Source: a virus. From it: 26,555 nt of DNA. Below the pieces are notes generated by a model. It ran no database searches. It saw only the letters and a list, made by a program, of their open reading frames with translations, and had not been told where the DNA came from. How positions within the stretch are numbered: the stretch's first letter is position 1; the number at the start of each line of letters is the position of its first letter. Positions 1,848-25,798 of this stretch are shown piece by piece. Position numbers and translations under genes: made by a program. The stretch covers positions 1 to 26,555 of IMG/VR virus record IMGVR_UViG_3300030333_005726; one strand, written 5' to 3'.

Positions 1848-1869
1848 CACTATGTTAGGTGTCATAGTG
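1848..1869. repeat. Inverted repeat at the end of the ParB-like gene
   Basis: CACTATG (1848-1854) and CATAGTG (1863-1869) form a 7-bp stem with an 8-base loop; an alternative pairing is TGACAC (1845-1850) with GTGTCA (1859-1864). It covers the stop codon of the gene ending at 1855. It lacks a T-run, so it is not a classical terminator; it may stabilise the 3' end or bind a protein. Confidence 0.4.
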
Positions 1870-3015
1870 ATGTGAAATTGGTTCCTTTTCACCAGCAAAC
1901 TCAGAAGAATATAACCATGATGGTAGTGGAAGAGATCTATCTATAAAGAGTGCCTTATATAATTCATAACAAGACCTTAAGAAATTAACAAACTTTAGAT
2001 ATTCATTCGCTCTTTCTTTTGCTGCATCTTCAGGTTTAATTTTCCTATCAGGAGATAGTGCTGATATTATATTATATGTACCCTTCCATCCAGCATCATA
2101 ATGTGCAATGACTTTCTTAATTAAACCACTCATATTACCACCAAATGCAATATAATTTGTATATTTAATATGAGGACCATCATAATAATCACAAGTATCA
2201 TCCTTACTATCTGATGGAGTCCATAGAGGGAAATTTAGTTTAATGTGGTCATGTAAATCAGATGATTTCTTGTAAAATCTCCTTTCAGGTATCAAATCAG
2301 TGTTTATAATTACTCTACCAACATATCCTTTTGCTTTAGTCTTTGTTAGACCATAATCCATTAACTCTAAAATTACAATATCATTGTACTCAGATTTATC
2401 TGCTGCCTTTATCTTTAGATTTAGTGGTCTTCCTTCTATTAAATAATCTTCTATAACTGACGCAACAACGTCATCATCATCTCTTCGATTACTTGCAGTA
2501 TAATCATTATTTAATATCTTATTTGCAATCTTTTTAACTCTATCTTCTGGTATATCTGCTACCCATGCAATTATATACTCTTCACCTGCTCTTCCAGCAG
2601 CAGTCCATCTATGAGTTAAATTAACAATACGATACTTCTTTGTTTGACCGTTATTATTTACCCAGTTCGGACTACATGGTGCAACTATTCCCTGTAATTC
2701 ATAAGGATTCCATCTCTTATTACGAATATCATTTTCAATCTCATCACATGTTTTAGAATCAACAGTTTCATTTACTCTAGTTTGAAATGCCTGTGGTCTC
2801 TGTTCTAATGTTACCTTGTTATGTAAATGTTCTATTCCCCAAATGTCTTTAAGTGGTATTAACTTTAACTCTGCATCTTTATATTCTGGTAGTAAATCTT
2901 GAAGAGGACGACTATGCTGTTTACACCTATCTAATAGTTCTTCTGTAAAACAAAAAGCATTAGGCATACTAAACTTCTTTTCTAAACCTGAAACGTCATC
3001 TGTAGTTGTTGTCAT
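1855..3015 (-). CDS. ParB-like domain protein next to DNA methyltransferase
   Basis: 386 residues. The first ~150 residues resemble the ParB/sulfiredoxin-like N-terminal fold: LKLIPLKDIWG (about 50-60), then GIVAP (109-113) followed by KYRIVNLTHRWTAAGRAGEE (about 127-146), which corresponds to the family's pattern of a hydrophobic strand, a 'GxRR'-like stretch and an alanine-rich helix. An exact GERR box is absent (THRW instead), so nuclease or NTPase activity cannot be assumed. The remainder (about 150-386) is unassigned. The start ATG overlaps the stop of the methyltransferase gene as ATGA, so both are translated together. ParB-like proteins are frequently paired or fused with phage DNA methylases, which fits a DNA-binding or targeting partner. 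The assignment is moderate. Confidence 0.6.
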   Translation of the reverse strand: MTTTTDDVSGLEKKFSMPNAFCFTEELLDRCKQHSRPLQDLLPEYKDAELKLIPLKDIWGIEHLHNKVTLEQRPQAFQTRVNETVDSKTCDEIENDIRNKRWNPYELQGIVAPCSPNWVNNNGQTKKYRIVNLTHRWTAAGRAGEEYIIAWVADIPEDRVKKIANKILNNDYTASNRRDDDDVVASVIEDYLIEGRPLNLKIKAADKSEYNDIVILELMDYGLTKTKAKGYVGRVIINTDLIPERRFYKKSSDLHDHIKLNFPLWTPSDSKDDTCDYYDGPHIKYTNYIAFGGNMSGLIKKVIAHYDAGWKGTYNIISALSPDRKIKPEDAAKERANEYLKFVNFLRSCYELYKALFIDRSLPLPSWLYSSEFAGEKEPISHHYDT

Positions 3016-3788
3016 AGTATTGTAGTTAGATCGATTGGGATTGATTTGATTCTTTCATTAGATATTCTAACATATTCTGGTGATGTGTCAATACCTATGA
3101 AAGATCTATTTAATTTAATTGCTGCTACTCCAGTTGAACCTGAACCCATACAATTATCTAATACAGTTTCACCTTCATTGGAATATGTTTTAATTAACCA
3201 CTCCATTAATGGTACTGGTTTCTGTGTTGGATGTACTTGTTGTTGTGCAGAGAAGTTTCTTGGAATGTTAAGAATTGATTTAGGATAACGTGTTCCTTTA
3301 TTCTCAAATTCTTTGCGTGGTTTCATACCATATCCATGATCGTTCTTTTTACCTACATAACCTTCTGGGTTCTTACTCACTCTTTTAAATGGTTCTCCTT
3401 TAGTCATTTGTGGATTATATGTACCACCAGCATTTTTATAGAATATTAATATATTCTCATGCACTTTCATTGGTCTCTTCTTTGCAAGACCTGGTGATCC
3501 ACACTTATTCTTATTCCATATAATTTCATATCTAAACCAATCTATCTTAGAACATATTAATTGAGATGTGAATGGTTGAGAACCGAACAAACATATAATA
3601 CCTTTAGGTTTAATTATCCTACCATATTGTTCCCACATTTTATTATAATCTAGGACTGAATCCCATTTAATAGATGTAGTACCGTATGGTAAATCACAAC
3701 ATATTAAATCAATAGACTCATCATCTATTGATTTCATCACCTCTAAACAATCGCCTTCATGTAATTTACAGTTCTTCAAATCCATCAT
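3012..3788 (-). CDS. Site-specific DNA methyltransferase, beta class
   Basis: 258 residues, a full-length compact DNA amino-methyltransferase. Motif IV is DLPYGTTSIKWDS (about 32-44; DLPY instead of the usual DPPY), IIKPKGIICLFG is the motif V-like strand, HPTQKPVPLMEWLIKTYS (186-203) is the segment typical of N6-adenine/N4-cytosine methylases, and DNCMGSGSTGVAA (211-223) is the SAM-binding motif, followed by the acidic FIGID. Motif IV before motif I gives the beta order. The start (ATGATG at 3788) lies inside the end of the preceding restriction-like gene and the stop overlaps the ParB-like gene. It probably transfers a methyl group from SAM to adenine or cytosine in a short DNA site. The site is unknown. 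Confidence 0.92.
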   Translation of the reverse strand: MMDLKNCKLHEGDCLEVMKSIDDESIDLICCDLPYGTTSIKWDSVLDYNKMWEQYGRIIKPKGIICLFGSQPFTSQLICSKIDWFRYEIIWNKNKCGSPGLAKKRPMKVHENILIFYKNAGGTYNPQMTKGEPFKRVSKNPEGYVGKKNDHGYGMKPRKEFENKGTRYPKSILNIPRNFSAQQQVHPTQKPVPLMEWLIKTYSNEGETVLDNCMGSGSTGVAAIKLNRSFIGIDTSPEYVRISNERIKSIPIDLTTIL

Positions 3789-5632: not shown

Positions 5633-6982
5633 TTATTGTGCGGTTATCTTAATATATCCATCTCCTGTGTATGTATTGGCAGTATTACTTGTATTACCAC
5701 CTGCCTGATTTGTTGTACTAGTACCAGCATTATATGATCCACCACCACCTCCACCAGTTGATCCAGAAGACCATTGTCCAGAAGTACATCCTCCAGTATA
5801 TCCACCACCAGCACCAGGTCCAGAGAGTTGTCCTCCACCACCTCCACCAAATCCACCGTAGTTCCATCCATACCCAGATCCAGAACTACCATAGCAACAA
5901 TTACCAGTTCCACCTACCATGCCATTATTAAATCCTTGACCACCATAGGCAGTACAACAGTGTCCTCCACCATTTTGACCACCACTGAGGTATCCACCAC
6001 CTCCTCCACCATGATAGTTTCCACTTGTGTTGCCACCATATCCAGTACTAGGTTGTGATGCATCATAATAGCATCCATACCTACCACCTTGCTGACCAGA
6101 TTGACCTTGAGCATGTGATGATGGTCTGCTACAACCCCATCCCCAGTTATTACTTGGTGATCCACCAGCACCACCAGCAACTAATAATAAAGTATTACTT
6201 GTACTATTCTTAACAAATGATCCTCCTCCACCTCCAGTTTCATTACCATGAGGAGAATAATATTGACCACCACCAACACCAACAACCATTTCTAATTGAT
6301 CACCTTTAGTTAGTGAGAATGTACCTGTAATCTTTGCACCCCAATAATCAGTATACCCATAACTCATATCCCTTCCACCTCTTGCTCCACCTGCTTCTAT
6401 CTGATAATTACCATCTTTAGGTACAGTCCAGAGTTGGTATCCTTGATAAGATCCTTGAGTAAAGTTAGTTCCATCATTCCAAGGTTCTCCACTATATTCT
6501 GAAGTCATTTGTCCTGAATTAGGACCATTTCTACTTCCTCTACTAACAATAGATTTAAAAGTAAATGATGAGAATTGGAATAGTTCTCCTCCTTCACCAC
6601 CTCCAAATGGATTAATCCATGCTGCCTCTATTTCATCCTCATTATCACCAGGTTCTCCAGGATCAAAGTATATATCTATATTATTTGTATCAGTATTCCA
6701 ACCAATTAATCCATTAGTTAAGTTTGTTGATGGTCTTGTTGAATCGCTCCATGTAGGTAATACATCAACTGCTCTACCTACTTCAACCCATGCACTACCT
6801 GACCATACACATAAAGTTTCTTTCTCGTTATCATATATTAATGCACCAGCATGAGATCCAGTCATCCCAGTTGGTCGATTAGCAGTAGTAACTGAAGGAA
6901 CTTTAATTCCCTTAGCACCAGTTACAGTACCACTTACATTAATGTTAGTTGCTGATAGCAGTCTGGATGAAAATTCTGACAT
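5633..6982 (-). CDS. Tail adhesin with ALK-type glycine-rich head (paralogue 1)
   Basis: 449 residues. Residues ~1-145 form a fibre/attachment part with two copies of the short phage-fibre module (ANRPTGMTGSHAGALIYDNE, then STRPSTNLTNGLIGWNTDTN). From ~146 on it is an ALK/LTK-type glycine-rich domain: FTFKSIVSRGSRNGPNSG, YQLWTVPKDGNYQIEAGGARGG, WGAKITGTFSLTKGDQLEMV, then long Gly runs with LLLVAGGAGG and the closing strand GDGYIKITAQ. Cysteine pairs occur in GGHCCTAYGG and GNCCYGSSGS. It probably sits at the tail-fibre tip and recognises the host surface. It is a close paralogue of the protein at 9834-11138. A purine-rich GGAGG lies 14 bases before the ATG and a late octamer at 7006-7013. Confidence 0.85.
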   Translation of the reverse strand: MSEFSSRLLSATNINVSGTVTGAKGIKVPSVTTANRPTGMTGSHAGALIYDNEKETLCVWSGSAWVEVGRAVDVLPTWSDSTRPSTNLTNGLIGWNTDTNNIDIYFDPGEPGDNEDEIEAAWINPFGGGEGGELFQFSSFTFKSIVSRGSRNGPNSGQMTSEYSGEPWNDGTNFTQGSYQGYQLWTVPKDGNYQIEAGGARGGRDMSYGYTDYWGAKITGTFSLTKGDQLEMVVGVGGGQYYSPHGNETGGGGGSFVKNSTSNTLLLVAGGAGGSPSNNWGWGCSRPSSHAQGQSGQQGGRYGCYYDASQPSTGYGGNTSGNYHGGGGGGYLSGGQNGGGHCCTAYGGQGFNNGMVGGTGNCCYGSSGSGYGWNYGGFGGGGGGQLSGPGAGGGYTGGCTSGQWSSGSTGGGGGGSYNAGTSTTNQAGGNTSNTANTYTGDGYIKITAQ

Positions 6983-7005: not shown

Positions 7006-7013
7006 TATTTATT
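7006..7013 (-). promoter_or_regulatory. Late promoter octamer AATAAATA
   Basis: Lies 24 bases before ATG 6982 and contains the TAA stop of the upstream adhesin gene (7009-7011). It matches the cyanophage late motif NATAAATA. Confidence 0.6.
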
Positions 7014-8145
7014 GGTCTTGAGTGTTAGTACTTGGAAACGCTCGACCTTGACCCCATATAATTCTTACTGCACCTTTACCACCATATGATCCATATGAGT
7101 CGTTTGATCCAGCACCTCCACCATAGTCACCACCTGGAACATCTGGGTTACCACTAGAGTTTCCTCCACCATCACTACCACCTGATCCACCACGACCAGC
7201 ACCACCATTACTAGTATCACCTCTACTACCATTACTACCTTGACCGAAGATGCCTACACCTCCTCCACCTCCACCGTAGATTTCATTATTACCTATATTT
7301 GTACGACCTCCTCCACCGCCACCACCTGAACCATTGGTTGCGTTATCTGAATTATAATCTCCTCCTCTACCACCATTACCTGTATATCCACCAGCACCAC
7401 CAGCACCACAAGATTGTCCTGTATCACTCAAACTACTTCTATTACCATCTCCACCATCTCCACCAAATCCTCCACCTTGCTCAGATCCACCAGATCCACC
7501 ATATCCTCCACCTTGACCACCGTAACCTGGTCTACTAGCAGAACCATTTCTATCTCTACCAGTTCCACCTCCACCTCCACCATACACAGTGTTAGTGTCT
7601 ATAAAATATGAAGTTCCACCATTACCAGCATAATTTCCTGGTGACGTTGGTGCTCCTTTTGCTCCAACAACTACACTATAAGTTTCTCCTGGTGTTACTG
7701 GTATACCATTTGCCCATCCTAAACCAGCACCACCACCTGCACCTTGTTCATCTTGAGTAGAACCACCTCCACCACCAACACAAACAACACAGACATCATA
7801 TACATTATCAGGACAAGTCCAAGTAAATGTTCCTGAAGACGTAAATGCTTCCTGACCTACATCAGTTGTTGTTCCAGCACCAGCAGAACTTCCTTGAGGA
7901 GATGCTATTGGTATCCATGCCTCACCATCATATACTTCTATAGCAAGTAAGGTTTCATTAATTCTTATCATCCCAACTTGAGGATTTGTTGGTCTTTGTC
8001 CTGTTGTGCCAGATGGTAAACATAACTGACCCATTGAACCCATCTTAAACTCACCAAATATATTAAGGTGGTCTTGACCATCCATCCGAATTTCCATATC
8101 CGAAAATTCAGGTCCATATAATTCCTCGAATCTAATAATGCTCAT
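7009..8145 (-). CDS. Tail fibre adhesin, glycine-rich type 2
   Basis: 378 residues. The N-terminal module (about 40-80) contains LPSGTTGQRPTNPQVGMIRI and YDGEAWIPIA. The C-terminal part is a different glycine-rich domain: AFTSSGTFTWTCPDNVYDVC, VVCVGGGGG, GIPVTPGETYSVVVGAKG, long GGGGGT/GGSGG runs and the closing GKGAVRIIWGQGRAFPSTNT, an ending seen in cyanophage fibre proteins (from memory). It probably forms a poly-glycine sheet-like adhesive head. It lies two bases after the preceding stop and has no good ribosome site, so translation is probably coupled. The target receptor is unknown. Confidence 0.82.
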   Translation of the reverse strand: MSIIRFEELYGPEFSDMEIRMDGQDHLNIFGEFKMGSMGQLCLPSGTTGQRPTNPQVGMIRINETLLAIEVYDGEAWIPIASPQGSSAGAGTTTDVGQEAFTSSGTFTWTCPDNVYDVCVVCVGGGGGSTQDEQGAGGGAGLGWANGIPVTPGETYSVVVGAKGAPTSPGNYAGNGGTSYFIDTNTVYGGGGGGTGRDRNGSASRPGYGGQGGGYGGSGGSEQGGGFGGDGGDGNRSSLSDTGQSCGAGGAGGYTGNGGRGGDYNSDNATNGSGGGGGGGRTNIGNNEIYGGGGGGVGIFGQGSNGSRGDTSNGGAGRGGSGGSDGGGNSSGNPDVPGGDYGGGAGSNDSYGSYGGKGAVRIIWGQGRAFPSTNTQDQ

Positions 8146-8146
8146 G

Positions 8147-9301
8147 TTACTGCACCACCAACATTGAAGGTTTGCCTCTGGCGGATCCCTTGCTACCAGT
8201 CTGTTCTATCCACCAGTTGTCACTCTGTCCTGATCCATCTTGCCAGTCATCATAACCATTACTATTGGTATCACACCATGACATAGTTTCATAACAAGGT
8301 TGGAGATTACTCTTATACCATGTACCAATATACAATGGATAATTCTGAGCATTACCACCTGATCCATTTACTCTTGGATAACTACCATTTCGATCATTCA
8401 TAACACCCCATGCTTCACAGTCATAGTTACCACTATACTGCCCATACTCATGTCTTCTATTCATGGTAGAACCACCCCATGTCAGTGATGCTCCTGTGAA
8501 GTTAAATTCTTGCACCCATGACTGTTGACCTGAAGGGATAGTTTGATTGCTACTAAATGAACTATACCAGTATATTATTGGATTGCCTAACCAGTTATTT
8601 GTACTAGGAGTTGACATACCAGAATTCTCATAACAGAAATGCATTACCTTTGTATAAGGTATACCAGTCATATCACAACTGAAACTATATTCAGGTTTTA
8701 ATCCAGATTCACTTACACCATTATCTCCTCCAACATAGGGACCATATGCTGTTGGTCTTGCTTGATGTCCTTGATTTGGATATTTTGATGCGTCATGGTT
8801 TGCAATAACCATCCATCCTCCACCACCTCCCCAACTTGAGGAGAGTATACAATAAAAGACTCTTGCTGTTCCAGAACCACCATTAATATAATAGTATCCA
8901 CTGGTACGATTACCTGAATCATATATTTCTTTAGCATTGACCGCAGGATTTGAAGCAGTACCTAATGTACCACTACCACCTGATCCACCACTGTCACCTG
9001 AATCATCTTCATCCTCTTCTGGTATTGCTGTAGCATATAACTTCCACTCACTACCATCATAAAATTCCAGACCTATTGTATTACCTGTCTCTGAATCAGC
9101 ATCAGTATTCCATCTAAGATATCCTGCATATGCAGGATTTGGACGTTGTGCTGTAGTTCCTGTTGGTAACTGTAATGCTTGTGACGAACAATGAGTTAGA
9201 TCTACAACACCATCTATCTCTAATGTATGTCCAGCACTAACACTAACCTGTCCTAATGTAGCACCAATACCTGATATTTTGTGAGTGGTAATTTTAGCCA
9301 T
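8147..9301 (-). CDS. Tail fibre adhesin with fibrinogen-like C-terminal domain
   Basis: 384 residues. The N-terminal fibre module has LPTGTTAQRPNPAYAGYLRW and FYDGSEWKLYA, then an acidic/Gly linker (EEDEDDSGDSGGSGGSG). From ~118, NAKEIYDSGNRTSGYYYING, then VFYCILSSSWGGGGGWMVIA, matches the start of a fibrinogen-related domain (normally ...YCDM...GGGW). The end SDNWWIEQTGSKGSARGKPS resembles related bacterial and phage lectin-like domains. Six or more Cys and a late Asp/Asn-rich stretch (DTNSNGYDDWQDGSG) could form disulfides and a calcium site. The start overlaps the preceding gene by eight bases. Fold assignment is moderate, adhesin role likely. Confidence 0.75.
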   Translation of the reverse strand: MAKITTHKISGIGATLGQVSVSAGHTLEIDGVVDLTHCSSQALQLPTGTTAQRPNPAYAGYLRWNTDADSETGNTIGLEFYDGSEWKLYATAIPEEDEDDSGDSGGSGGSGTLGTASNPAVNAKEIYDSGNRTSGYYYINGGSGTARVFYCILSSSWGGGGGWMVIANHDASKYPNQGHQARPTAYGPYVGGDNGVSESGLKPEYSFSCDMTGIPYTKVMHFCYENSGMSTPSTNNWLGNPIIYWYSSFSSNQTIPSGQQSWVQEFNFTGASLTWGGSTMNRRHEYGQYSGNYDCEAWGVMNDRNGSYPRVNGSGGNAQNYPLYIGTWYKSNLQPCYETMSWCDTNSNGYDDWQDGSGQSDNWWIEQTGSKGSARGKPSMLVVQ

Positions 9302-9581
9302 CAGTTACATTATTCTTTTCTACTTGTGCTTGAACTTCAGCAGTCTTATCACCTTCAGGATATTCTACTACCCCAGTAGTTTCTTCAAGACCTTCATTCA
9401 CTTCTCTATTGAGTTGTGATGCTGCATGAACACCACTTTCAATATCTTTAGTAATAAGCATATCTGCTTCAAGAAGATGAAGTTGTTTTACATGATCTTC
9501 TGCTTTAGATAATTGTAACTTTAATTCAGCAATAGTCGAATTAAGTTTAGTAATTTTCTCTTCTATTTCAGTAGGTGTCAT
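9294..9581 (-). CDS. Small coiled-coil protein in adhesin cassette
   Basis: 95 residues. The first ~45 form a regular heptad coiled coil (EIEEKITKLNSTIAELKLQL), followed by HLLEADMLITKDIESGVHAA and an acidic tail. It is placed between adhesin genes, preceded by a late promoter octamer and overlapping the next adhesin gene by eight bases. A role as a fibre assembly chaperone or trimerisation adaptor is an inference from position and coiled coil only. Confidence 0.7.
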   Translation of the reverse strand: MTPTEIEEKITKLNSTIAELKLQLSKAEDHVKQLHLLEADMLITKDIESGVHAASQLNREVNEGLEETTGVVEYPEGDKTAEVQAQVEKNNVTDG

Positions 9582-9833: not shown

Positions 9834-11138
9834 TTATTGTTTAGTTATTTTAATGTAACCTGCTCCAGCATATGTGCCACCATCAGATCCTGAGTTACCA
9901 CCTGCTTGGTTATTAGTAGAAGATCCTTGGTTATATGATCCACCACCTCCACCATGAGTAGAACCTGAAGACCACTGACCAGCAGTACATCCTCCAGTCC
10001 AACCTCCTCCAGCACCTGGTCCAGAGAGTTGACCACCGCCACCTCCTCCGAATCCACCATAATTATATCCTTCACCAGAACCAGAACTACCATAACAGCA
10101 GTTACCAGTTCCACCTACCATACCGTTATTATATCCCTGACCACCGTACGCTGTACAGCAATGTCCTCCACCATTTTGACCACCAGTATAATATCCTCCT
10201 CCACCACCACCGTGGTATCCTCCATTTGTGTTACCACCATATCCAGCAGTAGGTTGAGATGGATCATAATAACAACCATAACGACCACCATACTCACCAG
10301 ATTGTCCTTGTCCAGTTGATGTACTTCTACCACAAGACCATCCATGAGTATTAGAAGCACTACCTCCACCACCACCAGCAATAAGCAATGGAGAACCTGC
10401 TGACTTATTAACAACAAATGATCCTCCACCTCCACCTGCTTCATTACCATGAGGAGAATAATATTGACCACCACCAACACCAACAACCATAGAAAGTTCA
10501 GTTCCCTTAGTTAAAGTAAACTGACCACTAATTTTAGCACCCCATAGGTTTGTCATACCGTAGTTTAAATCTCTACCACCTTTTGCTCCACCTGCTTCAA
10601 TAGTATAAGTTCCATCTTCAGGTACTGTCCATACTTGATAACCCTGATAATCTCCTTGCTTAAAATGAGTACCATCATTCCATACTTCTCCACTATATTC
10701 CGAAGACATCTGTGAAGAGTTTGGACCGTTTCTACTTCCCCTACTAACAATAGATTTGAAGGTAAATGATGAAAACTCAAATAGACCAGCAGCACCTTCA
10801 GCAGCATTAGAACCAAATGTTACCCAATCACTTCCGTTAAAAATCTCTGCCTGACCTGTTGTAATATTAAAACCAAACTGCCCTGTAGATGGTGACGTTG
10901 GTCTTCCTTCTTCTCCTGACCACGTTCTCATATTACCAGCACCAAGACTCAACCAAGAACTTCCTTTCCACAACTCAACATCTTGTCCAGTTGTATTGTA
11001 AATTATCACTCCTGGATCAGCACTAGCAGGTTTTCCAGCATCCGCATAATTTGGTGCTTTCAAAGCGGTATTAGCGGATACCATCCCTGATGCTTGTACG
11101 TTCGCTGCTGTAACGGTATCTACGTTGAGATTACTCAT
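9834..11138 (-). CDS. Tail adhesin with ALK-type glycine-rich head (paralogue 2)
   Basis: 434 residues. The N-terminal part (about 1-120) has two fibre modules (ADAGKPASADPGVIIYNTTG and EGRPTSPSTGQFGFNITTG). The rest is an ALK/LTK-type glycine-rich domain nearly collinear with the protein at 5633-6982: FTFKSIVSRGSRNGPNSS, YQVWTVPEDGTYTIEAGG, SMVVGVGGGQYYSPHGNE, GGHCCTAYGGQGYNNGMVGG, GNCCYGSSGSG and GAGYIKITKQ. The N-termini differ far more than the heads, so the head has been duplicated onto different bases. Late octamer at 11165-11172. Receptor unknown. Confidence 0.85.
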   Translation of the reverse strand: MSNLNVDTVTAANVQASGMVSANTALKAPNYADAGKPASADPGVIIYNTTGQDVELWKGSSWLSLGAGNMRTWSGEEGRPTSPSTGQFGFNITTGQAEIFNGSDWVTFGSNAAEGAAGLFEFSSFTFKSIVSRGSRNGPNSSQMSSEYSGEVWNDGTHFKQGDYQGYQVWTVPEDGTYTIEAGGAKGGRDLNYGMTNLWGAKISGQFTLTKGTELSMVVGVGGGQYYSPHGNEAGGGGGSFVVNKSAGSPLLIAGGGGGSASNTHGWSCGRSTSTGQGQSGEYGGRYGCYYDPSQPTAGYGGNTNGGYHGGGGGGYYTGGQNGGGHCCTAYGGQGYNNGMVGGTGNCCYGSSGSGEGYNYGGFGGGGGGQLSGPGAGGGWTGGCTAGQWSSGSTHGGGGGSYNQGSSTNNQAGGNSGSDGGTYAGAGYIKITKQ

Positions 11139-11175: not shown

Positions 11176-12381
11176 TTAAACAGACTTAAGTGTTACTTTA
11201 ACATATCCCCACCCAGTTCCTCCACCATCACTACCAGTATTCAATCCCATATCTTGTGACGATCCTGCATACTTGGGGTTACCAGTCCACTTATAGGAAC
11301 CGCCTCCTCCTCCACCCCAACCATTACCTCCGTCACAACCAGAAGCACCGCCAGAGTATCCTCCGCCACCGCCTCCACCGTTGTCACCACCTTGACCACC
11401 GCCACCCATGCCAAATCCACCTCTTGAGGTTGCTCTCTTACCCCTAAAGTTTGAACCATTATTTCCACCATCATTACCAGTATTACCGTAATTATTCCAA
11501 CCACCACCAGCACCACCATTACCATAAGCATCTCCACCAGTTCCACCACCAGATCCACCAGATGTTCCACAATTTCCTACAGATCCACCAGACTGACTAC
11601 TTGAAGCATTATATCCGTCACTACTATTATATCCTGCACCACCTCCTCCACCTGCTGCCATAAGAGGATATGCGTCATTTCTATTTTCAAATACAAATGA
11701 TCCTCCTCCACCACCACCGTTCTGATTGTTAGCACCTTGCTGACCTACAACGATCATTATAGTATCACTCTTATTTAAAGTAAACGATGCCTTATTCTTA
11801 TATCCATATCCAGGTTGTCTATTACCACCATAACCTTGAGATATACCTCCTCTTGCTCCAGCAACTTCAAACTCCCATACACCAGTTCCAGGCACAGTCC
11901 ATTGCAATACACCATCATACTGTGGTGTAGCTAAATATTCATTTACCCAAGTCTGACTGTTATAAGGACTCTGACTTCTTAATGTATTAATATCATATGC
12001 TTGATGTGTATCACCTTGATTACCTCCTCTACCACCAGAAGTGAAAGTAAAAGATCCATTGACCTCCCACGGATATAGAAAATCTCCTGCTGCTTCTTCT
12101 CCATCACCATCACCACTTACAATATATCCCCAACCTCCTTTACCACCATGTTTCCAATACTCTAACCTACCTGTTCTGGTATTCATAAAAACAGATCCAT
12201 AAACAGGGTCTTGCGGTCTAGCAAAGACATTCTGATCTGGATCACCACCAGGAAGAGGTAAATATGATTGATTCTGTAATCTTAAATCACTTTCTAATTT
12301 TAAAGTACTATCATTCGCTAAATTTATTTTAAAATTAGGTGAATTGCCTTGTAATGCTGCTACTTTGATTTCGCTTGTCAT
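11176..12381 (-). CDS. Tail adhesin with ALK-type glycine-rich head (third, divergent)
   Basis: 401 residues. An N-terminal fibre module (about 30-95) contains LPGGDPDQNVFARPQDPVYG, VFMNTRTGRLEYW and GGWGYIVS. The head starts with GSFTFTSGGRGGNQGDTHQA and continues VLQWTVPGTGVWEFEVAGAR, KASFTLNKSDTIMIVVGQQG, SFVFENRNDAYPLMAAGGGG and a closing GTGWGYVKVTLKSV, the block order of ALK-type glycine-rich domains. It lacks the CC pairs of the two paralogues and has one Cys pair instead (GNCGTSGGSG; SGCDGGNGWG). The TAA of the upstream gene abuts this ATG; GGAG ten bases before it serves as ribosome site. It is translationally coupled to 12382-12804. Confidence 0.84.
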   Translation of the reverse strand: MTSEIKVAALQGNSPNFKINLANDSTLKLESDLRLQNQSYLPLPGGDPDQNVFARPQDPVYGSVFMNTRTGRLEYWKHGGKGGWGYIVSGDGDGEEAAGDFLYPWEVNGSFTFTSGGRGGNQGDTHQAYDINTLRSQSPYNSQTWVNEYLATPQYDGVLQWTVPGTGVWEFEVAGARGGISQGYGGNRQPGYGYKNKASFTLNKSDTIMIVVGQQGANNQNGGGGGGSFVFENRNDAYPLMAAGGGGGAGYNSSDGYNASSSQSGGSVGNCGTSGGSGGGTGGDAYGNGGAGGGWNNYGNTGNDGGNNGSNFRGKRATSRGGFGMGGGGQGGDNGGGGGGGYSGGASGCDGGNGWGGGGGGSYKWTGNPKYAGSSQDMGLNTGSDGGGTGWGYVKVTLKSV

Positions 12382-12804
12382 TTAAATTACACTCCATGCT
12401 GCTCCACTTTCGATAGTAACAGTGTAACCATTAGCAATAGTTACAGGACCAGCAGTAAAACCATTGGTATATTTAGCATCATTATTTGCTGTTGGACCTA
12501 CAGTAATATTTTCTGAAATAATATTATGATTAGTTCTTATAACACTTTCTTCTCCTAATGCTGGACCACCACCTGCAACTGGAGCCCATCCAGCAGAACC
12601 TGTTCCATCATCGTTAACATATATCTCTGCATTATCTATCTCACTATTATACCTTAAAGTACCAGCAACAACACCAACAGGTCTTTGTGCTATAGTACCA
12701 GATGGTAACCTAAAAACACTATTACTATTTAAAAATGATAGTGTTGTGATAATTGCCTCAGTGGAAGTTGAAATCTGATTTCCACTAATTCTTGAAACTG
12801 CCAT
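12382..12804 (-). CDS. Short tail fibre protein
   Basis: 140 residues. The fibre module LPSGTIAQRPVGVVAGTLRY (about 34-53) is followed by AEIYVNDDGTGSAGWAPVAG and a C-terminal segment GPVTIANGYTVTIESGAAWS with the final VI, an ending common in cyanophage tail-fibre-like proteins. It has no large head, so it is essentially the shared base module plus a small cap. GGAGGG lies a few bases before the ATG, and a TCTAAATA octamer at 12827-12834. It may form the base on which the adhesins assemble; that role is inferred. Confidence 0.78.
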   Translation of the reverse strand: MAVSRISGNQISTSTEAIITTLSFLNSNSVFRLPSGTIAQRPVGVVAGTLRYNSEIDNAEIYVNDDGTGSAGWAPVAGGGPALGEESVIRTNHNIISENITVGPTANNDAKYTNGFTAGPVTIANGYTVTIESGAAWSVI

Positions 12805-12826: not shown

Positions 12827-12834
12827 TATTTAGA
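12827..12834 (-). promoter_or_regulatory. Late promoter-like octamer TCTAAATA
   Basis: Lies 23 bases before ATG 12804 and overlaps the TAA stop of the 1320-residue gene. It differs from NATAAATA only by C at the second position. Confidence 0.45.
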
Positions 12835-15800
12835 TAGGTAATTCTAGTATATGAACTGTATCTGTATTCAATGGTGCATCACCAGAACTGAATACAATAT
12901 TTGCACCAAGAGAATCAACAGTATAATTAGTACCTGCTATCTGTGCTACACCATTCAAGAATACTAATACTGAATCATCAGTATGTTGTATACCTGCTTG
13001 GTAAGTAGTAAGTGCAAATGTTAATGTTGATCCATCACCAGTATATGATCTAGTAATATACTTATCGGATGCAACACCACCTCGACCAGTTACAACTAAG
13101 TCACCATCAATCTTAGCACTACCCAAAATATCAACCCTGAAATCAGCAGTTGCTGTCTTACCAATACCAATGTTCTGAGTATTACTAAAGGTAGAAATAT
13201 CAATAATACCAGTATCAGTTAGTCCAAACTCTCTCCACTCTTGAGCATAACGAATCCATCCAAGTGATTTACCTGGAGTCCAGTTAATATTATAAACTAA
13301 GTCACCATCAGCAGGAGTATCATATCCTGTTATGTTAGAGAAGTCTGGTTGTCCAGTTGCTAGCTCTGGTGCTAGTAGAGTCTGCTTAATAACTGTACCA
13401 TCTTGGTTGAAGTATGAAATCTTCTTAGCAGATAAGTTATCAGTAAACGTTGTCTGTCCTTGGAATGTAACAGGACCAGCGAATATAGATTCTAACTGGT
13501 TAGATGCTCCACCAATTACAGTTATCTTATCAGTTATAACCAACTCAGAGAATGTTTCAATAGTAGTATTCTCTTCACCAACAACATTCAACTGTGCAAT
13601 ATCTTCGTTAGTGATCTGACCAGTAACAGGGTTAATAACCTGGTTACCAATGAATAGGTCACCATTAGAGTTCAATCCTGAATAGAAAGCAACTCCTGCT
13701 TCTTCTTTAATACTCTGTGAGAACCTAACTTGGTTCTGTGTAAGAGTCTCAACCTGAGTTTGAGGGAACGCAGTTGAGTAGTTACCTGGACCAAAACCAA
13801 GGTATTCAAACGTATGATTACCTGATCTTAGAATTGAGTGTCGTCTAAACTCTACTGCTATTGGTGCTACAGTACCATCATTATTCTGTCTTATCTTAAT
13901 CTTTCTTACTTCCTCATCACCAGCACGAGCAGTTAATTCAACGTTAGATAATCTACCATTAACTGAATCGAAATTAGGTGTAGTACCTGGTTGTGTCCAA
14001 CCTGTGTCTCCTAATAAGAACTCAGTTGCTTCTTTAGTAATACTTCTTTGAGGATCAAGATTAGGAGTTGGTGTTGCACCATCAGTTGCATTAACTAAAC
14101 CAATAATTTGATTATCAGCAACAGATATAGCAGGTTCTGGATCGGCAAGTGGATTATCTCTGTCAAATGTAGGATATACTTCATTAACATTCTGAGAGAA
14201 CTTCCTATTATTAAAGTTAGAAGTTGAAGGTGCAATAGATGCACATAATAGTGTTAGATAATAGATACCATCATCAACACCTCGAACAAATGGTTGTACT
14301 ACTTCAATATCATAAACATAATAACACTTAGATAATGAATATGATGTAGTATCACTATTCAATGGTTGTAATACATAACCAGATAGAGGATCTCTTGGTA
14401 ATGGATTAGTCTTATCCTTATCAATTACATAACGGAATCTATATGTTCTATCTTGTAAATCTCTTGGATCAGGTATTCTCTTAAGGAATGTCGTTGGTGT
14501 AAAGTTAACAGTATTATATGTTGCATTAGCTGATAATGTATCATAGATCATGTTATTAACAGAATCTACAGAAAGATACCAACCACCAACTGTATCTGGT
14601 GCACCACCTATAGTATATGTTTGATTATCATATTGTATTGGAGATCCAGGATTACCAGCACCTACACCAGAAACACTAGGTCCATAAGGTGCTATAGATG
14701 CAGAATGAACTGTTGCTTCGTTTGCACCATTAGCAACAAGTAAGCAATTAATTTTATCTGCTACTGCACTAAGACCAGTACCATCTTGTCTAGCACCGAT
14801 TGTATAACCCTGTACTCTTGTTGTTGGTGGTGATGCTTCTACAGTATAACCATAGAGATACAATCTAGTTCCTGGAGTACCACCTTGCCCTGCTAATGCA
14901 GAGTTAATAGTTTTAGTTCTCTTAATATCAACGTTAACCCAGTTAACAGAAGTTTCTTCACCAAAAATAATATTACCATTTACAATAGCAGTATTAACTT
15001 CAGTTAATGTAATAACTCTAGTATTTGTATTAACAGATCCAACTGTTGCACCTATACCAATACCTTCTCCATGAACTGTCATCCCTTCGATGACACCATT
15101 AACAGAACCATCATTAGCTAAAGTAATATTACCACCACCATTAGCACCAGTAGCAGTAGTTGATATAACATTAAGTGCTTTAGGTGGTATAACATGAGTT
15201 AATGCACCTGCCTTATCTTTAGAAAATGCTTTTGCTTTAAATCCAGCAGATCTTAATGCAGTGTTACCGAAGTTACTGTTACTGTTGGTAATTGACATGT
15301 CAGCACCTGCTTCAGCAGTGAAGTGGGAATAGTATCCAACAGCGAACACAGAAACCGCCTGAATAAATGCGTCATTAGATGCAACAATATGCCTATGACC
15401 CCAATCCTTTCTATACTCAGCAAATCCATCTAAGTGAGCACCATCTCCAGATGTTGCCACATCATAATTACCAGTTGATTGATTATATCTTACAAATGCT
15501 CTGTCGTCTTTCTGTAGTGATAGTCCAGTAAACTGTGCCACAACCATTGACTTGAAACCAGTTGCTTTACTACCATCTGCATGCATACCATTCATACCCC
15601 ACACACTTCTTAGTGATAGGTTGAAAGCATAAGGTGATGCAGAGTCAACTGTATCAATCTCTGTCTTAACAGCAATATTTGATCCAACAGCATTACCCGA
15701 AGGTTCTGCTGACATTTGATAAGTGAATACATTACCAGATGCAGAGGTTACAGTAAATGAACCATTATAGATACCAGCATCCAATTCTGACTGAGGTCCA

Positions 15801-16792
15801 GTTGATCCACTAACACCAGATACGTTAATGTTAACACCAACAGAGAATCCATGATCTCTTGGGTTATCGAATTCATCAACAGTAACAGCAGTTGCAGTTT
15901 GACCGTTTCTTGTAATCTGTAGGACTCTATATTCATCAGAAATAGGACCAACAATTCTGTTTTCCTCAACCCTTGCCTGTATTTGGTCAGTTGAAGGATC
16001 ACCAGAAGTATCAGGAATTGTAGCAAACGCTTTAGATATCTTCTGATAATATATGTCTAAATCTGTTCTGTCTAGAATATTTGGAACAGCAGAATAATCT
16101 GCATTAGGAACCGTTCCAGCAGCAATAAGTTGTGATAATGTATTTAAACCATCAGCAAACTCAAAACATGTTAATCTATGATGTGAAAACTTAGGTGGTA
16201 ATGTCTCTACACTATCTGATTTGAAATATACACCTTCTTCTGCACCATCAAAGAATGAGAATTGCCAGAAATAAGTACCACCAGTTACTTTGAAGATTGC
16301 AGTTCTTGCTGGTACTTGTGCCTCTGTGTTTATACCTTTAGCAGGATATGTTGTAGGATATGGGACATACTTTGGAATTATTTTTGTTCTTCTAAGATCA
16401 CTACCAACAACAGAACAACCTCTAGGTACTATAACACCACCTTCAATCGAATTATATTTGTATAATACATTGTTAGGAGATGTTAAATCTAGGTTAGAGT
16501 TTTCATCAATAGGTGCAACGTTTGTATAAAGAATATCTCCAGGTCTATTATCTATCTGATATTCAGCAGGATATAAGTAAATTGAAAATGCATCAAATTC
16601 GTCATTACTTAGACCAACACGATATGAGAAACGTGCCACCTCAAGGAAAGCACGTTGCAAACTCTTAAACGGACGTAATGCCGAGTTACCCCTATTGTCA
16701 ATAGCGTCTGACGCATCGAAATCATCAGGGTTTACGTAGATAATACGTCCAGTTCTGGACGTAATAATATTCTTTAACCTAGTTAGTGACAT
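12830..16792 (-). CDS. Large virion structural protein (tail fibre/baseplate)
   Basis: 1320 residues, the largest protein here. The N-terminus (MSLTRLKNIITSRTGRIIYV, NPDDFDASDAIDNRGN, RPFKSLQRAFLEVARFSYRV) is characteristic of a large cyanophage structural protein. The PFKSLQRA stretch and the following GGVIVPRGCSVVGSDLRRTK pattern suggest a pectate-lyase-like parallel beta-helix at about residues 15-250. The long middle is beta-rich and unassigned. Near the end are an INWTPGKSLGWIRYAQEWRE segment and a C-terminal module YTGDGSTLTFALTTY with VLVFLNGVAQIAGTNYTVDS, a domain common in phage fibres. No catalytic residues were recognised. It is probably part of the tail fibre or its baseplate attachment. 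Confidence 0.82.
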   Translation of the reverse strand: MSLTRLKNIITSRTGRIIYVNPDDFDASDAIDNRGNSALRPFKSLQRAFLEVARFSYRVGLSNDEFDAFSIYLYPAEYQIDNRPGDILYTNVAPIDENSNLDLTSPNNVLYKYNSIEGGVIVPRGCSVVGSDLRRTKIIPKYVPYPTTYPAKGINTEAQVPARTAIFKVTGGTYFWQFSFFDGAEEGVYFKSDSVETLPPKFSHHRLTCFEFADGLNTLSQLIAAGTVPNADYSAVPNILDRTDLDIYYQKISKAFATIPDTSGDPSTDQIQARVEENRIVGPISDEYRVLQITRNGQTATAVTVDEFDNPRDHGFSVGVNINVSGVSGSTGPQSELDAGIYNGSFTVTSASGNVFTYQMSAEPSGNAVGSNIAVKTEIDTVDSASPYAFNLSLRSVWGMNGMHADGSKATGFKSMVVAQFTGLSLQKDDRAFVRYNQSTGNYDVATSGDGAHLDGFAEYRKDWGHRHIVASNDAFIQAVSVFAVGYYSHFTAEAGADMSITNSNSNFGNTALRSAGFKAKAFSKDKAGALTHVIPPKALNVISTTATGANGGGNITLANDGSVNGVIEGMTVHGEGIGIGATVGSVNTNTRVITLTEVNTAIVNGNIIFGEETSVNWVNVDIKRTKTINSALAGQGGTPGTRLYLYGYTVEASPPTTRVQGYTIGARQDGTGLSAVADKINCLLVANGANEATVHSASIAPYGPSVSGVGAGNPGSPIQYDNQTYTIGGAPDTVGGWYLSVDSVNNMIYDTLSANATYNTVNFTPTTFLKRIPDPRDLQDRTYRFRYVIDKDKTNPLPRDPLSGYVLQPLNSDTTSYSLSKCYYVYDIEVVQPFVRGVDDGIYYLTLLCASIAPSTSNFNNRKFSQNVNEVYPTFDRDNPLADPEPAISVADNQIIGLVNATDGATPTPNLDPQRSITKEATEFLLGDTGWTQPGTTPNFDSVNGRLSNVELTARAGDEEVRKIKIRQNNDGTVAPIAVEFRRHSILRSGNHTFEYLGFGPGNYSTAFPQTQVETLTQNQVRFSQSIKEEAGVAFYSGLNSNGDLFIGNQVINPVTGQITNEDIAQLNVVGEENTTIETFSELVITDKITVIGGASNQLESIFAGPVTFQGQTTFTDNLSAKKISYFNQDGTVIKQTLLAPELATGQPDFSNITGYDTPADGDLVYNINWTPGKSLGWIRYAQEWREFGLTDTGIIDISTFSNTQNIGIGKTATADFRVDILGSAKIDGDLVVTGRGGVASDKYITRSYTGDGSTLTFALTTYQAGIQHTDDSVLVFLNGVAQIAGTNYTVDSLGANIVFSSGDAPLNTDTVHILELPI

Positions 16793-19621: not shown

Positions 19622-20173
19622 CTATTTAGCAAGGTCAGCAATAGTGAATATACTCTTAAGTTTTATATTTGCTTCTTTCATAGCAACATCCGCTTCACCA
19701 TCTACTTGCCTATCAACAATAGTAATAATTTGATTCACTTTATATCCAGCATCACGGAGTTTCTCTACTGCTTTAATAGCAGATCCACCTGTTGTAATAA
19801 CATCCTCCAATACAGTTACCTCTGTATTTAAAGGTAATGCTGGTCCTTCTATCCATGCTTGAGTGCCATGACCTTTTGGTTCTTTACGAACAATTAAACC
19901 ATCGACACCAGCAGTCATAGCAACACCTGCTACTAATGGATCAGCACCAAGAGTTAAACCACCTACTGCTAATGTAGAAGGAGATAACTCCTGTGCAAAT
20001 AACTCGCTGATTATATTAAGACCTACACCAGATAAAGTAACTGGTTTACAATTTACATAATGCTCACTTTTTTTACCAGAAGAAAGAGTAAATTCTCCTT
20101 TACGATAACAATATGTTCTTAACAAACATAACAATTCTCCTCTAAGGTTTTCTTTCACTTCTTTAATGTTCAT
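19622..20173 (-). CDS. pyrE: Orotate phosphoribosyltransferase
   Basis: 183 residues, close to the usual short bacterial OPRT. It catalyses orotate + PRPP to orotidine 5'-phosphate in pyrimidine synthesis. FTLSSGKKSEHYVNCKPV (about 28-45) is the N-terminal orotate-site region, LAVGGLTLGADPLVAGVA the next conserved block, VRKEPKGHGT (95-104) the catalytic flexible loop, and VTVLEDVITTGGSAIKAV (119-136) the PRPP-binding motif. Its ATG overlaps the preceding small gene as ATGA and it ends its operon. A phage-carried pyrE can raise nucleotide supply during infection; cyanophages are known to carry such auxiliary genes. Confidence 0.93.
   Translation of the reverse strand: MNIKEVKENLRGELLCLLRTYCYRKGEFTLSSGKKSEHYVNCKPVTLSGVGLNIISELFAQELSPSTLAVGGLTLGADPLVAGVAMTAGVDGLIVRKEPKGHGTQAWIEGPALPLNTEVTVLEDVITTGGSAIKAVEKLRDAGYKVNQIITIVDRQVDGEADVAMKEANIKLKSIFTIADLAK
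19623..19630 (-). promoter_or_regulatory. Late promoter-like octamer GCTAAATA
   Basis: Lies 28 bases before the GTG start at 19595, formed by the last codons and TAG stop of pyrE (GCT AAA TAG). Same NCTAAATA variant as at three other sites. Confidence 0.4.
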
Positions 20174-20322
20174 TTTTTAGTATGCTGTATGTCGTATTCA
20201 ATGGTAATTTTTTTAGAAGACCTACCATTACTAGCAAAGGTAGTAGATCTTGTCATAGTACCATCAAGTTCTGCAGTAATTGTTAATAACTCTGCTATTA
20301 ACTCTCCTTCATTGTCTATCAT
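20170..20322 (-). CDS. Small hypothetical protein between oxygenase and pyrE
   Basis: 50 residues from ATG 20322-20320: MIDNEGELIAELLTITAELD, then GTMTRSTTFASNGRSSKKIT and IEYDIQHTKK. It is linked by ATGA overlaps to the oxygenase gene upstream and to pyrE downstream, so all three are translated in series. Length and position suggest a real small gene of the type common in cyanophages. Function unknown. Confidence 0.65.
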   Translation of the reverse strand: MIDNEGELIAELLTITAELDGTMTRSTTFASNGRSSKKITIEYDIQHTKK

Positions 20323-21002
20323 CGGTTATCAAATAAAATGTTAAAGGACAAACTCATTCTATCATTATCACTTTCATTAGTACCAACCCCATGATCCAAA
20401 TATGCTGGAAATAAAAGAATCTTACCCTCTTGAGGTATTTGGCACTGCTTATATGCGTAATGATTAAAAGAAAAAGAAGTAACCATAGAGGGGGAAGGTG
20501 ATTGAAAAAATAAATCACCAGTACCAGGATCACCTATTTTGTAATAGTATACACCAGATATATCACAATGTCCATGATTATGGATATGTGCATAATCTCG
20601 ATAATCAAACTTAGTCATCCATGAGCTTACTATTCTATAATTTAAAGGATCATTTGGATCATAATAACCACTTTCTTTAAATTCTATTGCGTCTAGATAA
20701 TTTGCCACATGACGTTGAATTGTACTCATAAATGCAGTCATGTTATTATCAACTATAATATTAGTCTTAAAATTTGGTGCTGACAGTTTATGTGTCATAC
20801 CAAAATTAGGATTATAATCGAAATTAACATTTTCTATTGCCTTATCACATTCTGATTGTACCTCTTCAAAATTTTCAACCATTGCAGCATACAATGGAGT
20901 AGGAAAAAGATGATATAGTGCAGAATTTTTAGTAGGTCTCTTTACTGGTTGATGGAAATCCATAACCTCACGTTTGCTCCAATTTCTTTTGATCCATGAC
21001 AT
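20319..21002 (-). CDS. 2OG-Fe(II) oxygenase superfamily protein
   Basis: 227 residues from ATG 21002 (a GTG three bases upstream would add one Met). A cupin-like C-terminal half holds AHIHNHGHCDISGVYYYKIG (about 138-157), supplying the first His and the acidic ligand of the iron site; FPAYLDHGV (about 198-206) supplies the distal His and DRMSLSFNI (about 214-222) the Arg that binds 2-oxoglutarate. This order fits the short phage 2OG-Fe(II) dioxygenases (TIGR02466-like), enzymes that hydroxylate an unknown substrate using O2 and 2-oxoglutarate. The start overlaps the preceding gene by one base. Superfamily is likely; substrate unknown. Confidence 0.82.
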   Translation of the reverse strand: MSWIKRNWSKREVMDFHQPVKRPTKNSALYHLFPTPLYAAMVENFEEVQSECDKAIENVNFDYNPNFGMTHKLSAPNFKTNIIVDNNMTAFMSTIQRHVANYLDAIEFKESGYYDPNDPLNYRIVSSWMTKFDYRDYAHIHNHGHCDISGVYYYKIGDPGTGDLFFQSPSPSMVTSFSFNHYAYKQCQIPQEGKILLFPAYLDHGVGTNESDNDRMSLSFNILFDNR

Positions 21003-21193
21003 CACTCATCGATATTTGATTCTACCATATCGATTAAAGTAGATACTTCGCATAAACAATCAATTTTCATCATCATATCAGAAATATGCTTACTAATGTA
21101 AGGTTTCTCACTTCTTGCTGCAAAAGCTAGTGCTTCTCTCAGTCTATCTTGTGCTTCTTGCAAAGCAGTTTCTACTTGTTTCGATAATGCCAT
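21002..21193 (-). CDS. Small helical hypothetical protein
   Basis: 63 residues, all predicted helix: MALSKQVETALQEAQDRLRE, then ALAFAARSEKPYISKHISDM and a short C-terminal helix. The TGA stop overlaps the next ATG. It lies five bases after the stop of the Lys-rich gene. The pattern resembles small conserved cyanophage helical proteins; no function is assigned. Confidence 0.7.
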   Translation of the reverse strand: MALSKQVETALQEAQDRLREALAFAARSEKPYISKHISDMMMKIDCLCEVSTLIDMVESNIDE

Positions 21194-21359: not shown

Positions 21360-22061
21360 CTATTTAGTATATTGATGATGGGATGCGGAAGCATCAGGAT
21401 CAGGCACTAAATCTGCATTAAATGATATAGAAATCCTATCCTCATCTGTCTTATTAGGTTCTACATGATGTCTAAGATGTGCAGGAAAAAATAACATTGT
21501 CCCTTCTTTTGGTTCAATATAATATGCACCAAATTGCGAATATTTCTCTTTAAACTCATCAGTATAGTAAAATAATTCTTTCCATGAACTAAAAGAATTA
21601 CCATTAGTAAAACAAAGTTCTCCACCTACAGGGTCTCCTATAGAATCAGCATATCCATCCACAGCATTAACACCAGAAAGTTTATTACTATGCTTAACTT
21701 CTGGTATTTTTAAATACAAAACACCTGACATGTGACATCCAGGATGATCATGTTGAACATTAAAATGATCCTTATTATTAATATTAAACCAACATGCAGT
21801 CAAATATATGTTAACTCCTGGTTTTATAATAGAATTACTATTAAAATAATGACCTAAACTATTTAAAACTATATCTCTTACTGGATTTTCTTCTAGATAA
21901 TATCCATCATTTGACTGCCAACCACCTCTATTAGTTCTATATACTTCTCCATTTGGATTATTTTTTCTTTCACTATAAACATAATCTATTACATTATCCC
22001 TATTCTTTTCATACTCATATACTGGTATCTCATGTACTAGACTAGGAAACAGATGGAACAT
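21360..22061 (-). CDS. 2OG-Fe(II) oxygenase superfamily protein, longer form
   Basis: 233 residues. N-terminus MFHLFPSLVHEIPVYEYEKN. The iron-site region is NVQHDHPGCHMSGVLYLKIP (about 101-120) with a His-x-His-like element; after an insertion (about 121-180) come FFPAHLRHHVEPN (191-203) with the distal His and DRISISFNADLVP (208-220) with the 2-oxoglutarate-binding Arg. This is the same arrangement as the protein at 20319, but the two differ widely outside these motifs. It overlaps a small basic gene upstream by 20 bases. The hydroxylation target is unknown; such phage enzymes are common in cyanophages. Confidence 0.83.
   Translation of the reverse strand: MFHLFPSLVHEIPVYEYEKNRDNVIDYVYSERKNNPNGEVYRTNRGGWQSNDGYYLEENPVRDIVLNSLGHYFNSNSIIKPGVNIYLTACWFNINNKDHFNVQHDHPGCHMSGVLYLKIPEVKHSNKLSGVNAVDGYADSIGDPVGGELCFTNGNSFSSWKELFYYTDEFKEKYSQFGAYYIEPKEGTMLFFPAHLRHHVEPNKTDEDRISISFNADLVPDPDASASHHQYTK
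21361..21368 (-). promoter_or_regulatory. Late promoter-like octamer ACTAAATA
   Basis: Lies 28 bases before ATG 21333, formed by the end of the 2OG oxygenase gene (ACT AAA TAG). Confidence 0.4.
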
Positions 22062-25207: not shown

Positions 25208-25215
25208 TATTTATT
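25208..25215 (-). promoter_or_regulatory. Late promoter octamer AATAAATA
   Basis: Lies 20 bases before ATG 25188 and contains the TAA stop (25211-25213) of the upstream oxygenase gene. Confidence 0.6.
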
Positions 25216-25798
25216 GGTATTGAGGTGATCTATGATTCATATCGAAATCAAATACAATTTCAAAATTAAGAGCAAAGGTAACTCTTTTAGTATCTAATAT
25301 ATGAGGTGTTACTCCATGTAACATATGAGAGGGGAAAAATATTATATCACCCCTTTTATATTTTACATGATGATAAGAAGAATCTCTTAATATATTAAGA
25401 TACCAATTAGGAGTTAATTCCGAACAGTTTCTATTATAAAAATAGAATTCACCAGATCCTTCTTCATGATCATTAGTAAAAAGAACTGCAGATAAATCTG
25501 CAGGAAGATGATCATGTATCTCTTGGAAATATCCCTTAACATATGTATTTCTCCAAGAGTCTTGTATACGAAGACCACATGTTATTCCAAGTTCTGAAAC
25601 AAACTTTTCAAAAGATGGTTTGAGTAAGTGGAATAACTCTATACCATCTATTCTTTCTCTTTTAACTATGCACTTACTACCCCAACTAAAATTCTGATCC
25701 TCTGTTAAAATAATATTGTCAATATGATGAAGTAATTCTTCTTTATTGGGTGGAGTAATCAACCCATAAAAATTTTGGGGGAATACTTGTTGTATCAT
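25211..25798 (-). CDS. 2OG-Fe(II) oxygenase superfamily protein, short form
   Basis: 195 residues. The iron-site His/Asp region is QEIHDHLPADLSAVLFTNDH (about 92-111), GEFYFYN (116-122) follows, then KRGDIIFFPSHMLHGVTPH (148-166) with the distal His, and KRVTFALNFEI (171-181) with the 2-oxoglutarate-binding basic residue. This is the compact arrangement of phage 2OG-Fe(II) oxygenases. It overlaps the CpeT-like gene by four bases (ATGA). It is the third such gene in the window; similarity to the other two is confined to the motifs. Substrate unknown. Confidence 0.8.
   Translation of the reverse strand: MIQQVFPQNFYGLITPPNKEELLHHIDNIILTEDQNFSWGSKCIVKRERIDGIELFHLLKPSFEKFVSELGITCGLRIQDSWRNTYVKGYFQEIHDHLPADLSAVLFTNDHEEGSGEFYFYNRNCSELTPNWYLNILRDSSYHHVKYKRGDIIFFPSHMLHGVTPHILDTKRVTFALNFEIVFDFDMNHRSPQYQ

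Follow-up and report, generated by a model that had tools for sequence, protein, structure and literature searches.

Does the small fibre-like gene in this virus carry a fibrinogen-like domain, and could that domain serve the phage in recognising its host? The gene lies in IMG/VR virus record IMGVR_UViG_3300030333_005726 (26.6 kb); by the window we mean the whole stretch of DNA analysed, 26,555 nt.

The gene and its locus

The ORF is intact from ATG to stop and encodes 384 amino acids (Table 1). The segments on which the original prediction of a fibrinogen-like domain had been built were located in its product: EIYDSGNRTSGYYYING at residues 125–141 (nt 8879–8929), VFYC...GGGGGWMVIA at residues 148–167 (nt 8801–8860) and DNWWIEQ at residues 361–367 (nt 8201–8221).

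Table 1. Coordinates in the window of the fibre gene, its parts and the genes that anchor the locus.
Feature	Positions	Strand	Basis
Whole gene, 384 aa: adaptor, linker and fibrinogen-like tip	8147..9301	-	ORF
N-terminal domain, residues 1-92, PTGTTAQRP...GYLRWNT motif	9026..9301	-	Similarity to Kyanoviridae proteins, PHROGs
Linker, acidic, Gly/Ser-rich, residues 93-114, EEDEDDSGDSGGSGGSG	8960..9025	-	Sequence
Fibrinogen-like C-terminal module (predicted), residues 115-384	8150..8959	-	AlphaFold2, Foldseek, 17 relatives
Subdomain-A-like part, residues 115-170, GxYxI...YCIL...GGGWMVI	8792..8959	-	PDB profile search, hhalign, Pfam
Conserved family motif SWCDTNSNGYDDWQDGSGQSDNWWIEQ, residues 341-367, candidate Ca2+/ligand loop	8201..8281	-	Conservation, 18 members
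Large tail fibre protein, locus anchor	12830..16792	-	phrog_529 tail fiber protein, 2106 bits
140-aa protein, PSGTxAQRP head motif; its gene is conserved as the first one behind the large fibre gene	12382..12804	-	phrog_7459, E 1e-62

Residues 1–92 constitute a domain common to proteins of many cultured Kyanoviridae (T4-like cyanophages). The best identity, 47.8% over residues 1–92, was to S-MbCM100/ACG-2014a proteins, and matches to phrog_1325, phrog_5636 and other PHROGs of unknown function were also obtained. Judging from these similarities, the domain is presumed to function in fibre attachment and is hereafter referred to as the adaptor. The head motif of the 140-aa neighbour is of the same type as the adaptor motif. 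In S-TIM4, S-8S29 and P-SSM4, adaptor-type genes follow immediately on the large fibre gene and a conserved gene of about 140 codons, and the order in the window is the same: large fibre gene, 140-aa gene, then the fibre array. With both the adaptor and the position after the large tail fibre gene present, the protein matches the adaptor proteins of Kyanoviridae fibre loci.

The genes between approximately 12.4 and 19.6 kb, which include those for tail fibre (phrog_529, phrog_693) and virion structural (phrog_692) proteins, show 74–81% DNA identity to Synechococcus and Prochlorococcus T4-like phages, and a baseplate hub protein (phrog_694) is encoded at 22.6–25.2 kb. Since the neighbours match cyanophage fibre, structural and baseplate genes, and the adaptor is present, the proposed setting of a cyanophage tail fibre can be considered sound on sequence grounds. 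The locus suggests that the product is a tail fibre protein of the virion.

On the same minus strand, the gene is flanked by four other fibre-like genes whose products are Gly-rich in the C-terminal half (5633–6982, 7009–8145, 9834–11138 and 11176–12381). The product of 7009–8145 matches Pfam Gly_rich_2 (E 2e-11), while 5633–6982 and 9834–11138 are clear paralogues, both with FSSFTFKSIVSRGSRNGPNS and a long Gly/Cys-rich region. Directly upstream of the fibre gene, and overlapping its start by 8 bases, lies a minus-strand ORF for a coiled-coil-looking 95-aa protein (9294–9581) with no PHROG match, possibly a fibre partner or chaperone. Elsewhere on the minus strand, a phosphoribosyltransferase-like gene (19622–20173, phrog_32468) adjoins the tail fibre genes and a 2OG-Fe(II) oxygenase gene (20319–21005, phrog_81) stands among tail genes. 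Two more ORFs (21360–22061 and 25211–25798) resemble this oxygenase by eye, and S-SM1 likewise has several 2OG-Fe(II) oxygenases after its fibre locus. At 1855–3788, also on the minus strand, a DNA methyltransferase gene (phrog_67) overlaps by a few bases the gene of a 386-aa protein with no PHROG match.

The C-terminal module occurs on different stems

A search of 50,697 phage records with the module (residues 115–384) revealed no credible relative, the sole match (E = 4) being due to chance, and a PHROG search gave none for the module alone. Scans of IMG/VR revealed the module in 17 other distinct uncultured marine viral contigs, at 30–87% identity to the window copy. A final relaxed pattern scan of IMG/VR added no further member, and the family appears saturated there for the motifs tried. 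Two scans for cellular relatives, covering 85,000 prokaryote genomes, found none, and we therefore propose no bacterial donor. Neither the subfamily nor its motif appears to have been described in the libraries that we searched.

The module is C-terminal in every one of the 18 members, the window copy included, and the N-terminal stems that carry it are of at least five different kinds. Contigs L001 and L002 have the same adaptor as the window protein (86–88%) and L035–L037 a distant version of it; other N-termini are found in L003–L005, L012/L022, L029/L030, L031, L032, L033, L038 and L065, the last being a 1406-aa protein with fibre-like repeats that ends in the module. Four of the relative contigs were searched against phage records and matched mainly cyanophages, with a few other marine phages; one of the four also matched phages of Campylobacter and Methylophilales, probably by way of conserved T4-type genes. 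Judged by the company it keeps in these proteins, the module is a portable tip.

Sequence similarity to fibrinogen

Single-sequence searches of Pfam, NCBIfam and the PDB with the whole protein produced no matches. For the N-terminal piece of the module, Fibrinogen_C was the sole Pfam match (residues 111–184, 14.2 bits, E 0.04), short of the 22-bit cut-off. With family depth the signal sharpened from these negative or marginal results. Pfam scans detected Fibrinogen_C in three of 17 members (best E 0.0072), and a 17-member profile compared with 177,635 PDB sequences had as its best five matches the fibrinogen gamma chains 1ei3, 1m1j, 1lwu and 1n73 and angiopoietin-1, with E values of 0.0046–0.085, all over module positions 3–56. 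NCBIfam NF040941, a model of fibrinogen-like YCDxxxxGGGW domains (cut-off 30 bits), was passed by the relative L036 with 33.5 bits and failed by the window copy with 11.5.

Profile searches and hhalign agree that the signature of fibrinogen subdomain A (GxYxI...YCxM...GGGWxxI) is present in the module, and hhalign related the module start to FReD-like profiles of sister phages with probabilities of 98.7 and 96.0. Thus, the resemblance to fibrinogen-related domains exceeds chance, as PDB profile, Pfam and structure matches (see below) indicate, and at the sequence level homology ends after the first ~55 residues of the module. One relative matched COLFI (collagen C-propeptide) at E 0.0054; this weak hint was set aside, the structure search having given fibrinogen domains.

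Fibrinogen-like proteins of related phages

At the same locus, other fibrinogen-like proteins are encoded by the cultured phages P-SSM4 (PSSM4_030), S-TIM4 (ORF_38/39, phrog_1959), S-RIM14 (AOO13362), S-8S29 (WLW36873) and S-CAM8 (SXCG_00050). They share with the window protein the location after the large fibre gene and the fibrinogen-like start of the C-terminal module, and a PTGTTAQRP-type N-terminal domain can be read in S-TIM4 ORF_39 and in the P-SSM4, S-8S29, S-RIM14 and S-CAM8 proteins. In contrast, the rest of the C-terminal module is unalignable by profile comparison, and the DDWQDG motif of the window family is absent from those Kyanoviridae fibrinogen-like proteins that were read here. 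WLW36873 matched angiopoietin-2 in a single-sequence PDB search (E 3e-5) and covers Fibrinogen_C positions 14–188. AOO13362 contains VYCDMTTDGGGW and matches NF040941 (E 5e-19) as well as intelectins/XEEL (1e-4). PSSM4_030 has the same fibrinogen-like start and is probably the BFVD/UniProt entry Q58LR8. Where the NF040941 family (GGGWT_bact, YCDxxxxGGGW) has YCDMxTDGGGW, the window protein has YCILSSSWGGGGGW.

A whole-genome search with the window profile did not find the sisters in S-TIM4, MS29 and S-8S29, so that profile–profile comparison was needed to establish the link. By hhalign, a further set of marine phage tips (alignment A8) shares the first 55 residues of the module (probability 98.7, E 2e-16). 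The A8 tips (L070, L073, L075, L077, L084, L091, L093, L097 and L099) start with NGVYWINLPTVGPKQIYCIMDS..DGGGWM and end in a conserved CCQ(D/N)xTGxNRSARVE motif; A8 relatives are found in the cultured cyanophages S-H9-1, ACG-2014h, P-TIM40 and P-HM2.

Fibrinogen-like tips are thus in general use in this phage group, with the window copy as one divergent branch. The idea is not new for cyanophages, since UniProt labels the related protein Q58LR8 accordingly; its novelty is limited by this label and by two annotations from the literature, 'fibrinogen-like coiled coil protein' (marine phage islands, PMC3909814) and 'fibrinogen protein' (roseophages, PMC12629253).

Predicted fold of the module

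AlphaFold2 modelling of the module with the 18-sequence alignment resulted in a pLDDT of 78.6 and a pTM of 0.85; an earlier model from six close sequences (pLDDT 29) was discarded. In a Foldseek comparison with the PDB, each of the best 50 matches listed was a fibrinogen-related domain, the intelectin-like LSVL counted in. FGL1 was at the top (E 2.8e-4, probability 1.00), angiopoietins and ficolins were also among the leading matches, and most top alignments extended over ~280–300 columns, i.e. most of the domain. TM-scores were borderline (0.30–0.45 by query, 0.28–0.53 by target), with large rmsd. A viral structure library yielded nine confident matches (probability at least 0.89), eight to named Synechococcus or Prochlorococcus phage proteins and one to an unnamed entry; among the eight was P-SSM4 Q58LR8, titled Fibrinogen C-terminal domain-containing protein. 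Structure prediction and PDB comparison, the test on which the fold claim had been staked, showed no clearly different fold. As modelled, the module is fibrinogen-like and divergent.

Gly-rich genes on both sides and the poor six-sequence model would fit a low-complexity Gly/Asn-rich fibre tip, not fibrinogen-like at all, that mimics GGGW by chance as its Gly-rich neighbours might. We regard this as very improbable: homology and fold evidence agree, the conserved residues of the module are not low-complexity, and the fold search, model-based as it is, disfavours it.

Intelectins are homologous to fibrinogen in their N-terminal part only, and the module might similarly be a chimera in which only the ~55-residue GGGW subdomain derives from fibrinogen and the other ~215 residues adopt a phage-specific fold. 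The end of sequence homology at about residue 55, the failure of a C-terminal profile to find anything in the PDB, and TM-scores of about 0.5 or less are all consistent with this, and the sister fibre P0007 and the A8 tips best match intelectins. We nevertheless consider it unlikely, since the Foldseek alignments to fibrinogen domains span most of the domain. Intelectins and LSVL (X-type lectins) share the N-terminal fibrinogen-like part and occur among the structure matches, but intelectin-type LSVL is only at rank 24 and they are not the best structural match for the module.

Many fibrinogen-type domains, such as those of angiopoietins, tenascin and FGL1, bind proteins and not sugars, and both the angiopoietins and FGL1 turn up in the leading structure matches; a structural module, either a fibre trimerisation tip or a docking domain for another baseplate protein, would fit this. 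The position of the module at the C-terminus in 18 of 18 members, on unrelated stems, is that of an exposed tip, and the same locus has several tip types behind similar adaptors; a purely structural role instead of receptor binding therefore seems improbable to us.

The conserved C-terminal motif, cysteines and candidate ligand site

The most conserved C-terminal motif of the 18 members is SWxD..GxDDWQDGSGxxDxW. The D/N-rich stretch with DNWWIEQ, which had been offered as a fibrinogen resemblance, contains this highly conserved family motif and by sequence is not detectably fibrinogen-like. A PDB search with a profile of the C-terminal third detected no relative, the profile–profile alignment to the sister family breaks down at the DDWQDG region, and the model is least confident there (pLDDT below 50 at residues 343–359, module 229–245). 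MAFFT placed DDWQDG over the SDDVSGGIG motif of the sister family; this alignment was unsupported by hhalign and was not used.

The P subdomain of fibrinogen domains has a Ca2+ site of the form Asp-x-Asp-x-Ser-x-Asn, and the module motif occurs at about the same place in the sequence. With its conserved D..GxDDxQDG residues it resembles an acidic metal loop and is the best candidate for a metal or ligand site. As the C-terminal-third profile has no PDB counterpart, Ca2+ binding by this loop is something that we infer.

The only near-universal cysteine is that of 'YC', present in 17 of 18 members. The conserved FReD disulfides, including one matching FIBCD1 Cys401–Cys414, are absent from the module family. 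The acetyl site of FIBCD1 centres on a Cys–Cys disulfide with a cis-peptide at the second cysteine, and the Cys401–Cys414 disulfide links the Ca2+ and acetyl sites (PMC3908420). The suggestion that the phage domain binds acetyl groups finds no support in a family with a single near-universal cysteine, and the pocket is not recognisable by sequence; acetyl binding is possible, with nothing that points to it specifically.

Compared with the FReD family (PF00147: ficolins, FIBCD1, tachylectin 5A, angiopoietins, FGL1), the module shares G-x-Y-x-I...YC...GGGW, the predicted overall fold and an acidic motif near the C-terminus that is followed by aromatic residues. It differs in scoring below the Pfam cut-off, in lacking the conserved disulfide pair and in having its own motif, GxDDWQDGSGxxDxW, with no recognisable CHxxNLNG-type acetyl pocket. 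Membership among the classical fibrinogen-related lectins could therefore not be upheld. We tentatively suggest that the module family represents an as yet undescribed subfamily of fibrinogen-like phage lectins, in which the binding site may have been rebuilt as a Ca2+ loop without disulfides and which may serve as a portable tip in uncultured marine T4-like phages.

Proposed role

The reading that we favour, with a probability of roughly 0.7, is that the gene encodes a small T4-like cyanophage fibre protein consisting of an adaptor and a divergent FReD-like tip for a host glycan, the tip being swapped whole on a constant adaptor. From the shared N-termini and the locus, the ~92-residue adaptor would probably dock the protein to the tail, the long fibre or a partner fibre protein. 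The 270-residue FReD-like domain, given its fold and position, would be the exposed tip and bind a glycan of the host surface, most likely LPS O-antigen or capsule, in a reversible first contact. The binding surface would most likely lie in the C-terminal part around the SWxD..GxDDWQDGSGxxDxW loop, possibly with Ca2+. A phage lineage could change its specificity by recombining whole tips on a constant adaptor, and at the sequence level such swapping is seen: the same tip occurs on different stems and different tips occur on the same adaptor type. The module is probably one of several swappable host-recognition tips.

These results tie a class of cyanophage genes that is variable and uncharacterised to a fold by which animals recognise microbes, and supply concrete residues and domain borders for how marine phages may recognise cyanobacteria. 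If the tentative subfamily is real, uncultured marine T4-like phages would have a portable host-recognition tip whose binding site was rebuilt around a Ca2+-dependent loop. Given the wider set of fibrinogen-like tips at this locus, swapping of tips may be a general mechanism of host range in abundant ocean viruses.
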